Positions 22,522 to 58,401 of a DNA stretch of 64,000 nt are shown piece by piece. The notes under the pieces were generated by a model that searched no databases, had not been told where the DNA came from, and was given only the letters and a program-made list of their open reading frames with translations. The stretch is from the NCBI GenBank assembly GCA_028687995.1, contig JAQTZA010000005.1:1-64000 (forward strand). The letters run 5' to 3'. Numbering within the stretch: position 1 is the stretch's first letter; every line of letters starts with the position of its first letter. The position numbers and the translations under genes are program-made. The stretch comes from Bacteroidales bacterium. Lineage in GTDB: Bacteria > Bacteroidota > Bacteroidia > Bacteroidales > UBA7332.

Positions 22522-22558
22522 AAAAAGGCACAAACAGATCATCTCTGTTTGTGCCTTT
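22522..22558 (-). terminator. Terminator of the peptide transporter gene (GGCACAAAC family)
   Basis: A perfect 15-bp stem (22524-22538 with 22544-22558) has a 5-nt loop and, on the minus strand, ends in a T run. It lies just after the stop at 22581. The stem sequence GGCACAAAC is shared with the terminators near 29006 and 34982. Confidence 0.9.
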
Positions 22559-34980: not shown

Positions 34981-35021
34981 AAAAAGGCACAAACTCATAA
35001 GTTTCAGAGTTTGTGCCTTTT
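34981..35021 (-). terminator. recA terminator (GGCACAAAC family)
   Basis: A perfect 15-bp stem (34982-34996 with 35007-35021) has a T run on the minus strand. It lies 22 bp after the recA stop. The stem sequence is almost the same as at 29006-29044. Confidence 0.9.
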
Positions 35022-49955: not shown

Positions 49956-50660
49956 TTATTTGCGTTTCAAATAGTATTGCCGCTCTTCTTCAGGAAATTT
50001 TTCTATTGCATATCTTAGCATTGTCCTTGGCATTTGAGTGGAATATTTTTCTAAAAAGGCGACTTCTACCGCTTTGTTTCTGTTTCCAACCTCACGAAGC
50101 ATCCAACCTATAGCTTTATGCATTAAGTCGTGCGAGTGATTTATCATTTTCTCCGATAAAAGCAATGTGTCGGTGTAGTCGCCGTTTCTAATGAAATCAA
50201 AAGTTGAGATTATTGCAATTCGTTGTTCCCAAAGTTGATTGCTATCCGCGAGTTGATAAAGAATAGCTCTTTCTTTGTCACGCAAATAATGACCGAGAAT
50301 GAAATGAGCCGAACTATCTACCAAATCCCAATTATTTATCTGTTTCTTATTTCTGAGATAAAGTTCTACTATCTCTCTTCTAGTCGTAGTTTCCTTTGTC
50401 TTTTGGTATTTAGCTACCATAATAAGAAGAGCTGTTAATCTGCATTCGTGATACGGGTCATGTAATAGTTTTTCGACTTCGCCTTGTGAAGTTGAAAGAT
50501 TTTTCGTTGCTATTTTTCGTTGTTCTGGTACTGTAACTCCTAAAAATAGATCTCCTTCCGCATATTCTCCTTCACCAGTTTTGAAAAATTGTTGCGATGC
50601 AAGTGCCTTTTCTTTGTTTGAATGTAATGTGAGAGCCTGTTTAATTTCTAATGCAGTCAT
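49956..50660 (-). CDS. DNA alkylation repair protein, AlkD-like HEAT-repeat family
   Basis: 234 residues, all-helical. 'FFKTGEGEYAEGDLFLGVTVPEQRKIATK' is the family start (G-x-Y-x-x-x-D-x-F-x-G-x-x-x-P). HEAT-like repeats follow ('YHECRLTALLIMVAKY', 'INNWDLVDSSAHFILGHYL', 'WEQRIAIISTFDFIRNGDY', 'HDLMHKAIGWMLREVG'), with the Trp and Asp of the 'NNWDLVD' active-site block. It removes bulky alkylated bases without base flipping. It is convergent with the permease gene (3 bp apart) and divergent from the porin. Confidence 0.9.
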   Translation of the reverse strand: MTALEIKQALTLHSNKEKALASQQFFKTGEGEYAEGDLFLGVTVPEQRKIATKNLSTSQGEVEKLLHDPYHECRLTALLIMVAKYQKTKETTTRREIVELYLRNKKQINNWDLVDSSAHFILGHYLRDKERAILYQLADSNQLWEQRIAIISTFDFIRNGDYTDTLLLSEKMINHSHDLMHKAIGWMLREVGNRNKAVEVAFLEKYSTQMPRTMLRYAIEKFPEEERQYYLKRK

Positions 50661-50711
50661 AATTTCTATTGTTTTACGAAAATAATTAATTATGACTATA
50701 AATCAGTCAGT

Positions 50712-50737
50712 TTATTAAAGAAATATTTCTTTAATAA
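50712..50737 (+). promoter_or_regulatory. 26-bp perfect palindrome in the porin promoter (candidate operator)
   Basis: The half-site TTATTAAAGAAAT (50712-50724) is followed directly by its reverse complement (50725-50737). It occupies the -33 region of the -7 element at 50750-50757, so a bound dimer would block RNA polymerase. It lies in the gap between divergent genes. Confidence 0.65.
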
Positions 50738-50749
50738 GGTTTTTCTCTT

Positions 50750-50757
50750 TACCTTTG
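50750..50757 (+). promoter_or_regulatory. Putative porin promoter -7 element
   Basis: TACCTTTG, followed by CAC, fits TAnnTTTG. The leader to the ATG at 50842 is about 80 nt; no riboswitch was recognised in it. Confidence 0.55.
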
Positions 50758-50841
50758 CACGAAATTTAGGTAGAAGGTTTCTTTAGTATTGGTTTAGACT
50801 CGCAAAACGGGAATTAGTTCTCTGCTTTTGCATGTTCTGTA

Positions 50842-51963
50842 ATGAAAGATTTTATGAAAAAGAGTATTTTTTTGGTAGTCATTTTTTCGATGCAATTTTC
50901 CTTTCTTTGTGCACAATCTTCAGAGAGTTTGCTGAATTTTTTCAAACAAAAACAACTTATCACACAACAAGAGGCTGATTCGTTAATGGCTATTGAACGT
51001 AAAATTGAGCCAAGTCGAACTATTATGCTAGTCGATAAAGTGAAATTTATGGGTTACGGGCATATAAATTATCAATATTCTGATACTTCTTCTTTGAATC
51101 ACACCTACTGCATCAAGCGTCTCATTGCTATAATTGATGCAAAACTAGCAAAAAATCTTGGCTTTCAGATTCAAAGTAATTTAGGAGCCAGTGCACAATT
51201 AATTGAGCTTTTTATAGAGTGGTCACCCAAGCAATATGCAAAGTTAAAAGCTGGTCAAATGAAGGTTCCATTTTCAATTGAAAATCAAATGTCACTTGCC
51301 GTTCTTGAAAATATTGTTGGATCTCAAGCAATTAATAATTTAGTTGGTGGTTCCGCCGATGTATTGGGCGTTTTAGGTGGTGGCGGTAGAGATATTGGTG
51401 TTCAGCTTTCAGGCGATCTTTTACATACACAAAATAGAGTGTTATTGGATTACAAAATTGGTCTTTTTAATGGGAATGGGATCAATAATATGGATAATAA
51501 TAATAGTAAAGATATGGTTGGAATGTTGACTTTTTCACCAAACAATTCTTTGAAATTTTCATCTTCCGCCTATTTTGGAACTGCAAACTATTTTTGTAAA
51601 GATTTTGGAGATACACGTCCATCCGATCATGAACGAAATCGATGGAGTGTCGGTGCAGAATTGAATGATAAACTTATTTATTGTCGGACTGAATATCTAC
51701 ACGGCAAGGATGCCTCAATAAATAAACAAGGGTTTTATGTACTCTCAAACGTCCATGTCTCAAAAGCGATTGATGTGATTGCACAATATGATTATTACAA
51801 TAAAAATATTCTTGCAACAAATCGACAATATACCAATTATGGGTTAGGTGTAAACTGGACTTTCTGTCGGAGAAGCAGATTTCAAGTTCTATATCTATAT
51901 AAAGACAATAATTTTGCGAAATCAGAAAATTCTATTTTGGGTCAGGTTCAAGTAGGATTTTAA
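50842..51963 (+). CDS. Outer-membrane porin, OprO/OprP-like
   Basis: 373 residues. A signal peptide ends near 'SFLCAQ'; an alternative ATG at 50854 would give a shorter n-region. A short helical stretch ('NFFKQKQLITQQEADSLMAIERKI') precedes the barrel. The pattern 'KFMGYGHINYQYSDT', 'LAKNLGFQIQSNLGASAQLIELFIEWSPKQYAKLKAGQMKVPFSIENQMS' and a terminal aromatic ('GQVQVGF') fits the phosphate-selective porin O/P family. It would form an anion-type diffusion channel, but the solute is unknown. Transcription is probably controlled through the 26-bp palindrome upstream. A terminator follows at 51988. Confidence 0.8.
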   Translation: MKDFMKKSIFLVVIFSMQFSFLCAQSSESLLNFFKQKQLITQQEADSLMAIERKIEPSRTIMLVDKVKFMGYGHINYQYSDTSSLNHTYCIKRLIAIIDAKLAKNLGFQIQSNLGASAQLIELFIEWSPKQYAKLKAGQMKVPFSIENQMSLAVLENIVGSQAINNLVGGSADVLGVLGGGGRDIGVQLSGDLLHTQNRVLLDYKIGLFNGNGINNMDNNNSKDMVGMLTFSPNNSLKFSSSAYFGTANYFCKDFGDTRPSDHERNRWSVGAELNDKLIYCRTEYLHGKDASINKQGFYVLSNVHVSKAIDVIAQYDYYNKNILATNRQYTNYGLGVNWTFCRRSRFQVLYLYKDNNFAKSENSILGQVQVGF

Positions 51964-57033: not shown

Positions 57034-58401
57034 TTATTGTTCACCTGGAATATTGCGAACGCATCTGAAACCTACGAACGCAACCTTTTCGTTCTGATAT
57101 TTCCATTCCCTGAGGTCAACATTTACAAAATTATATACATCTTTAAATGAACCACCACGAATTACTTTCTTTTTTAATTGATATGGCGTATTTACTAATG
57201 CATTGAACTCTGTACTTGGATTCATTGTTGACATAATTTTATTTCCAGATGGAAAATATGCAGTCGAAGTCCATTCTGCAACATTACCAACTATATCAAA
57301 CAATCCTAGTTCATTTGGTAGAAAAGATCCAGCTGGTGATGTGATTAAATATCCATCATCCGTAAAATCACCTTTTCGCGGTTTGAAGTTTGCAAAATAA
57401 CAACCTTTTTTGTCAGTAATTTCGTCACCTCTCCATGGGTATTTTTTGTTTACATCGCCTTTTCGACCTCCTTTTGCTGCATATTCCCATTCAGCTTCCG
57501 TTGGTAGTCTGTAAGGAGCAGTTTCAAAACGGCTGTTTATCTTAAATGTTTTGGTTCTCCACTGACAAAATGCATTTGCTTGCTCCCATGAAACACCAAC
57601 TACTGGATAGTTCTGGTAAGCTGGACTAGAGAAGTACATAGAAACATAAATATCATTTTTCTCAGCAACAAAATCTGCTTTCCAACAACTTGTGTCAGGA
57701 TAAACATTTACAATTGATTTTGTATAATAATCCTTGTAACTGCGTATTGGCCGTTTTATTTGAATATTAACAATTCTCCCTTTTGAATTCACGTATGATG
57801 AATCCATTGCCATAAATACATCTGCTTCGGGGTCTTGTTGAAAATCCGTATTGAGTATAGTCCGATTTAACGAATATTTTCTATTATTTGCTTTTTCAAG
57901 ATCAATCCAATCATATTGATAGTTCAATATATTTGAATTTGTAATTCTTTTACCTTGCATTGGATCTGTAAAGTAAAATTGCTTGAAAATTGCTTGAATA
58001 TTAGGATCTTTTGATTTAAAAGGTATTGGTTTTCTCCAATTTATTGCAGAATCACCTGTGATTTTATCTGCAGGTTTAAACGAAGGATCAATTTCAGCTA
58101 AACGCTCTCTCATAACGGAGTCCTTTACCCAATTGACGAAGAATTTATACATGTAATTTGTGACTTCGGTTTCATCCATCCAAAAAGATTCAATGGAAAC
58201 TGTCATCGAATCATTAACTGAGCCCCAAACTGTGTCATTTGGCGTACCCATTCTGAATGCTCCTCGTTCAACAGCAACCATTCCTCTCGGAACTGCTTCT
58301 CTGAATTGTGACGATGTTACATTTGGAAGCTGACCTTGCTGATTTGTATTGCAAGAGCTAAGCGCTATTGTTATTAGTAGTAGTGGAAAAAAACTTTTCA
58401 T
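57034..58401 (-). CDS. gldK: Type IX secretion lipoprotein GldK/PorK
   Basis: About 455 residues from the ATG at 58401 (a second ATG is at 58404; the frame is open upstream only with a TTG). Lipobox 'ALSSCN'. A formylglycine-generating-enzyme-like (SUMF1) fold is seen: 'PRGMVAVERGAFRMGTPNDTVWGSVNDSM', 'YPVVGVSWEQANAFCQWRTKTF', 'RLPTEAEWEYAAKGG', 'NELGLFDIVGNVAEWTST', 'KKVIRGGSFKDVYNFVNVDLREW' and 'VGFRCVRN'. In the T9SS this protein is structural and forms the outer-membrane-anchored ring with GldN. It should not be taken as a sulfatase-activating enzyme. Confidence 0.95.
   Translation of the reverse strand: MKSFFPLLLITIALSSCNTNQQGQLPNVTSSQFREAVPRGMVAVERGAFRMGTPNDTVWGSVNDSMTVSIESFWMDETEVTNYMYKFFVNWVKDSVMRERLAEIDPSFKPADKITGDSAINWRKPIPFKSKDPNIQAIFKQFYFTDPMQGKRITNSNILNYQYDWIDLEKANNRKYSLNRTILNTDFQQDPEADVFMAMDSSYVNSKGRIVNIQIKRPIRSYKDYYTKSIVNVYPDTSCWKADFVAEKNDIYVSMYFSSPAYQNYPVVGVSWEQANAFCQWRTKTFKINSRFETAPYRLPTEAEWEYAAKGGRKGDVNKKYPWRGDEITDKKGCYFANFKPRKGDFTDDGYLITSPAGSFLPNELGLFDIVGNVAEWTSTAYFPSGNKIMSTMNPSTEFNALVNTPYQLKKKVIRGGSFKDVYNFVNVDLREWKYQNEKVAFVGFRCVRNIPGEQ

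Follow-up and report, generated by a model that had tools for sequence, protein, structure and literature searches.

The closest described systems are those of Rex, whose classical operator (ROP) is given as TTGTGAAW4TTCACAA (classical form TTGTGAAATATTTCACAA) in accounts of S. aureus (PMC2883068) and S. agalactiae (PMC8376106). For T. maritima Rex, Arg48 is described as reading G5 and Lys49 as reading G7/A8, with Arg60 and Gly61 touching T4 and T3 (PMC8836258), and for the S. agalactiae protein G5 and G7 are reported to be read by two helix arginines (PMC8376106). The NADH switch is attributed to Arg16, Tyr98 and Asp188 of T. aquaticus Rex, and T. maritima Rex is stated to carry Met in place of Arg16 (PMC6125430). 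Rex is described as apparently absent from most Gram-negative bacteria (PMC8376106). Literature searches brought up no paper that treats the operator or the regulon of Rex in Bacteroidota, a result that does not establish absence from print, and the main text of PMC3878776 does not mention Rex.

The window analysed here, a 64,000-nucleotide stretch of a Bacteroidales genome, contains a perfect 26-bp palindrome, TTATTAAAGAAAT followed by ATTTCTTTAATAA (together TTATTAAAGAAATATTTCTTTAATAA). Its two 13-nt arms (50712–50724 and 50725–50737) are 100% complementary and abut without a spacer, and 12 nt separate it from TACCTTTG, exactly as the preliminary description had it (Table 1). That description had extended the feature to 50757; the start holds, but the palindrome stops at 50737, and it is the −7 box that reaches to 50757. 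TACCTTTG fits TAnnTTTG, which we take to be the Bacteroidetes-type −7 consensus. The divergent layout, with an AlkD-type gene on the minus and a porin gene on the plus strand, was correctly described. The centre of the palindrome, GAAAT/ATTTC, is the GAAW4TTC centre of the classical ROP, whereas the full ROP is not matched: where the latter has outer TTGT/ACAA, the motif that the site fits has TTANN/NNTAA. In the kind of regulon it marks the motif resembles the ROP, as it occurs together with Rex and before redox and central carbon genes (see below).

Table 1. Coordinates of the proposed operator and neighbouring features in the window.
Feature	Position	Strand	Basis
Proposed Rex-A operator, perfect 26-bp palindrome	50712..50737		Symmetry, resamples; matrix 31.9 bits, rank 1 in window
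Operator core TTAAAGAAATATTTCTTTAA, 20 bp	50715..50734		Fits TTANNGAAWWWWTTCNNTAA, 0 mismatch
TACCTTTG, porin promoter −7 element, 15 nt past core	50750..50757	+	Sequence, promoter spacing
TTTCTTTAGTA, extra half-site-like copy in porin leader	50778..50788	+	10/11 complementary to left arm
Porin gene, likely controlled gene	50842..51963	+	Weak Porin_O_P match, 30.7 bits, cut-off 20.9
TATTTTCG, possible weak −7 element of AlkD-type gene	50677..50684	−	Read from sequence
AlkD-type gene for DNA alkylation repair, divergent from porin gene, less likely target	49956..50660	−	DNA_alkylation, 205.9 bits

No gapless perfect palindrome in the window is longer than the 26-mer, and the sole other one with arms of at least 8 nt has 8-nt arms. 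Resampling the window 100 times under a first-order Markov model gave arms of at most 11 nt, a length reached once, against 13 nt here, which upholds the earlier judgement that the symmetry is unlikely by chance. Shuffles gave an expectation of 0.00 per window for the 26-mer with up to three mismatches. Across the 3.56-Mb genome it occurs once, together with a single three-mismatch relative before the gene for succinate dehydrogenase/fumarate reductase cytochrome b. The 20-bp core is the only match to TTANNGAAWWWWTTCNNTAA without mismatch within the window. The half-site-like copy in the porin leader may be due to chance. When a spacer is permitted, the window holds inverted repeats with longer arms: those at 34982–35021 and 22524–22558 have 15-nt arms, have AAAGGCACAAAC/GTTTGTGCCTTT in common and are terminator-like.

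One Rex protein was found in this genome, outside the window (G000:C25:28823–29470). It passes the Rex family models NF003994 (288 against a cut-off of 130), NF003996 (184.6 against 138) and NF003995 (172.8 against 126) and lies over the cut-off of PF06971; six other Rex models remain under theirs. In the alignment the GxGxxG loop (GAGSLG) and the acidic residue that follows (FD) are kept, and NAD(H) binding by this type of protein, termed Rex-A in the following, appears plausible. Rex-A shares the curated family, the winged helix and the GxGxxG nucleotide domain with the Rex proteins of T. maritima, T. aquaticus, B. subtilis and S. agalactiae. It differs from these four in that the base-reading helix has Ala-Lys for Arg-Lys, the wing Thr-Arg for Arg-Gly, and the switch triad Ala or Ser/Asp/Ser for Arg16/Tyr98/Asp188 of the T. 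aquaticus numbering (Ala25/Asp107/Ser199 in this genome, from the alignment with T. thermophilus). The positions of T. maritima Arg48, Lys49, Arg60 and Gly61 are thus occupied by Ala, Lys, Thr and Arg; the helix Lys is common to Rex-A and classical Rex, its counterpart in S. agalactiae being Arg. A regular expression retrieved 48 Rex proteins from 82 loci, with some genes present twice; in 39 of these rows Ala/Ser-Asp-Ser accompanies the helix and wing of Rex-A. As read from the loci, this helix and this wing resemble DASQVAKDLS and GKTRVGY, respectively, whereas the other kind of Bacteroidales Rex has QVRRD in its helix. Although of the same family and order, the latter class is only 27–29% identical to the Rex of this genome (two rows) and keeps both the helix Arg and the Arg/Tyr/Asp triad (seven extracted rows). 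The Rex of G037 (L089) has the Ala-Lys helix and the Thr-Arg wing but retains Tyr98 (EAKTRYS), and is perhaps intermediate between classical Rex and Rex-A. Judging from the aligned residues, the classical NADH switch cannot operate unchanged in Rex-A, and the replacement of these residues makes NAD(H) uncertain as the signal.

To describe the motif, a symmetric 26-bp matrix was constructed from sites of other genomes upstream of mdh, pckA, nqrA and fucO. Out of 32 input sites 31 were kept, the nqrA site L137 being too close to the end of its 250-bp stretch; the mdh site of G001, which is identical to that of G002, and L276 were not included, and two sites, one each from G001 and G002, stem from the same genus as the window. 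The matrix scores its training sites between 12.7 and 33.4 bits and ranks the palindrome first in the window, with a runner-up at 11.9 bits. The third-best match (57864–57889, 11.8 bits) lies far under the operators and is probably a chance occurrence. In the left half of the motif G7, A8 and A9 are nearly fixed (2.04, 1.24 and 1.37 bits), whereas position 5 is the least informative within each half (0.20 and 0.33 bits). T4 of the classical operator is A in the Rex-A motif, which leaves free the G that the ROP specifies and that the first arginine of the helix reads. Protein and operator have changed together: the arginine for G5 is lost and G5 is free, and the lysine is kept along with G7-A8. 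This matched loss of Arg and of G5 specificity is the best single argument that Rex-A owns the motif.

The distribution of the motif was addressed in 393 genomes of the order. A scan of relatives with the 20-mer and three mismatches was swamped in AT-rich genomes; TTANNGAAWWWWTTCNNTAA was counted at zero mismatches against a control consisting of the reversed pattern, and the same genomes were screened for Rex. Here, Rex-A denotes a match with E below 1e-59 (48–100% identity), the helix having been read in a subset of these matches; G031 has Thr for Ala. As TTANNGAAWWWWTTCNNTAA was picked after viewing the sites in this genome and in G025, the first counts were not blind, and the later 393-genome and named-genome counts still contain both. 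The 65 Rex-A genomes hold 100 sites against 10 for the control, distributed over 47 genomes, with an exact match absent in the other 18. By comparison, 40 sites against 62 were found in the 174 genomes with other Rex matches only and 46 against 61 in the 154 genomes without a Rex match, i.e. 86 against 123 in all 328 genomes without Rex-A. The Fisher value for sites versus control, 1.9e-19, is too small, as are p-values from these genomes generally, because they share ancestry. An excess of the motif is observed only together with Rex-A. Two Rex-free genomes that carry the motif, G278 and G327, belong to genera with Rex-A members, and the Rex-free matches L138, L139 and L140 are not at central carbon genes.

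Where Rex-A is present, the sites recur at the same genes. G025 and G043 have three exact sites each, before mdh, pckA and nqrA; G023 combines an exact site at pckA with a two-mismatch site at mdh, G013 has a three-mismatch site at mdh, and G001 and G002 have one site at the lactaldehyde reductase gene (fucO). The latter two genomes also contain perfect copies of TTAGGGAAATATTTCCCTAA (L124:3001, L125:3001, L127:3001 and L128:2697). These were considered as strong operators and rejected, as they share long conserved flanks (cgaagc...acgatattacccatacca-like) and are attributed to a short dispersed repeat family; four of the 100 sites in Rex-A genomes belong to it and were left in the counts.

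A gene-by-gene comparison gave a similar result. In the 300 bp upstream of mdh, 14–16 of 16 positions match in 8 of 10 Rex-A genomes (G000, G001, G002, G013, G023, G025, G027 and G043); G030 and G031 lack the site. Rex-free genomes reached 11–13 at best, with the site in none of the 13 scored, among them G003, which belongs to the same family and whose mdh is 80% identical; G010, with only a 28% identical paralogue, was left out. Upstream of pckA, 14–16 of 16 positions match in all five Rex-A genomes, the lowest being G027 (14, if accepted by its palindrome), whereas none of 16 Rex-free genomes reached 15 or more: fifteen scored 13 or less and one 14, within an A/T run. No match to this pckA gene was found in the genome of the window. 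The core precedes TAnnTTTG by 13–15 nt in seven of the eight site-bearing mdh promoters (L143–L153) and by 27–28 nt at pckA in four genomes (L171, L172, L174 and L176), so that two operator positions about 13 bp apart are seen. For autoregulation of rex, no site was detected in ten rex upstream regions, three of which (L079, L083 and L086) may have a mis-set start.

Named genomes were examined through 80 mdh loci, 40 of which were chosen for the Rex test. With "site" defined as a best match 14–15 nt before TAnnTTTG, 19 of the 80 loci carry one, with scores of 16 (12 loci), 15 (2), 14 (3), 13 (1) and 12 (1); the bearers include Phocaeicola massiliensis, Bacteroides sp. 519, Barnesiella sp. An55, a Parabacteroides MAG and Paludibacter MAGs. 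Rex-A is encoded in 18 of these 19 genomes (56–64% identity), the exception being a Mediterranea MAG whose site is the weakest and in which no match to Rex was obtained. In the 21 genomes without the site, two of which score 14 at other spacings (L264 and L310), Rex-A was found in none and a distant Rex in four. The named set overlaps with the 393 genomes by at least three, since G405, G406 and G423 share Rex coordinates with G319, G111 and G295. The earlier statement that the half-site matches no nameable operator is superseded by the proposal of a variant Rex operator, based on the matrix and on the co-occurrence of motif and Rex-A: the palindrome is very probably an operator of a Bacteroidales-type Rex-A.

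With the 20-bp core at up to three mismatches, 13 places were found in this genome against five for the reversed control, including positions before mdh, the succinate dehydrogenase/fumarate reductase cytochrome b gene (sdhC/frdC), methylmalonyl-CoA epimerase and sucC and between eno and cysK; one match precedes murB (L014) and three are intragenic (L010, L012 and L013). A 16-mer core with three mismatches proved uninformative (190 matches against 149 for the control genome-wide). On the matrix, mdh scores 33.3, sdhC/frdC 30.0, eno/cysK 26.0, the epimerase 22.5 and sucC 22.1 bits, and these five are candidate Rex-A targets. At mdh, the distance from core end to TAnnTTTG is 15 nt, the same as at the porin. 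Two Rrf2-family genes (L044:7668–9532 and L045:9472–11513) also have site-like palindromes of 21–23 bits nearby; they adjoin YceI-like, porin-like and sulfide-quinone-reductase-like (SQR) genes, and cysK is near.

The latter genes account for the strongest rival. An Rrf2-family operator was the first lead, given that both Rrf2 genes, whose family is confirmed by TIGR00738, adjoin site-like sequences (one at cysK/eno, the other beside the sulfide-quinone-reductase-like and YceI-like genes; 20.6–23.3 bits in the Rrf2/SQR region and 21.1 bits at the second Rrf2 gene), and that the Rex-free G006 has TTAAAGAAATATTTCTATAA before YceI/porin-like genes. It was demoted because the sites in other genomes lie at mdh, pckA and nqrA and follow Rex-A. 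This argument is indirect; still, with no excess over the control in Rex-free genomes, an Rrf2 operator is considered very unlikely.

The reading that we regard as highly probable as a whole comprises a Rex-A operator, a dimer on the site, a porin kept off until a redox or metabolic signal arrives, and a fermentation regulon. A Rex-A dimer would sit on the palindrome with one recognition helix per GAAW half. As the core lies 13–15 nt before the −7 box at the porin and at seven of eight mdh promoters, the dimer would cover the −33 region and block RNA polymerase, repression by occlusion being the simplest mechanism; the earlier suggestion of a dimer operator over the −33 region finds support here. 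The porin, or less likely the AlkD-type gene, would be kept off until the signal releases Rex-A, and in relatives the regulon would comprise central fermentation genes, i.e. mdh, pckA, nqrA and fucO. The mdh core of G027, which overlaps the −7 box, would also suit repression. At pckA, the spacing of 27–28 nt implies that a single mechanism does not fit all promoters, and the site may act there in a different geometry, perhaps as an activating one. The site, its motif, the co-occurrence with Rex-A, the promoter spacing and the paired change in protein and operator are computational results; that Rex-A binds the DNA and represses instead of activating is what we infer from sequence comparison, as is, with the uncertainty noted above, NAD(H) as the signal.

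Some of the same promoter features could point to an activator. AAAGA-N6-TCTTT has the half-site frame of the Crp/Fnr family, and a site of such an activator would be consistent with the position near −37, the lack of an evident −33 element and the central carbon targets. The co-occurrence with Rex-A and the agreement between the lost arginine and the lost base specificity speak against it, leaving a Crp/Fnr operator a slimmer chance than the Rrf2 alternative. Least probable of all is a chance palindrome or an RNA hairpin without a protein partner, for despite AT-rich intergenic DNA and a folding energy of the region as RNA of −9.4 kcal/mol (z = −2.40, 2 of 200 shuffles as good), the arms exceed those of every resample, a matrix from other genomes ranks the site first, and the palindrome lies upstream of the predicted start and should be outside the porin mRNA.

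Returning to the Rex-A operator and the genes that flank it, the preliminary description had allowed for regulation of the porin, the alkD-like gene or both. The porin is the likelier target, because its core-to-TAnnTTTG spacing falls within the range of the mdh promoters; the AlkD-type gene is less likely. In the comparisons made here, no indication of phosphate or metal control arose. Conservation upstream of orthologous porins, on which the initial proposal had been staked, is not observed: the palindrome is absent upstream of both same-genus orthologues (G001, 53%; G002, 54% identity), where the porin is also divergent from an AlkD-type gene. Rex-A control of this porin consequently looks lineage-specific, and the site was either gained in this genome or lost in G001/G002. 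Among the more distant porin relatives examined, no site was found in any with Rex-A, and G021, which has no Rex, shows a 14-of-16 match; the scan of named genomes did not find the porin. Conservation specific to the porin thus fails, yet the palindrome is a conserved regulon motif before mdh, pckA and nqrA in Bacteroidales with Rex-A.

To our knowledge, little is known of how transcription steers the metabolism of gut Bacteroidales towards succinate, propionate and further end products. Tentatively, Rex-A may represent a re-wired branch of Rex in which operator and sensing switch changed together, so that the signal is read otherwise or another signal is read; it might be a main transcriptional controller of fermentation to succinate and propionate in Bacteroides, Phocaeicola, Parabacteroides, Barnesiella and Paludibacter, with the porin recruited in the lineage of the window. 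Given the replacement of the switch triad, one may ask which signal Rex-A senses. As a variant of the known Rex operator, the palindrome would mark a regulon in a major gut lineage, sites of this kind also preceding genes of core fermentation in relatives from the gut and the environment. It would further offer a clean example from nature of how the DNA target of a regulator family changes, the base of the lost arginine being freed and those of the kept lysine fixed. The regulator, operator and listed targets proposed here can be tested in tractable commensals.
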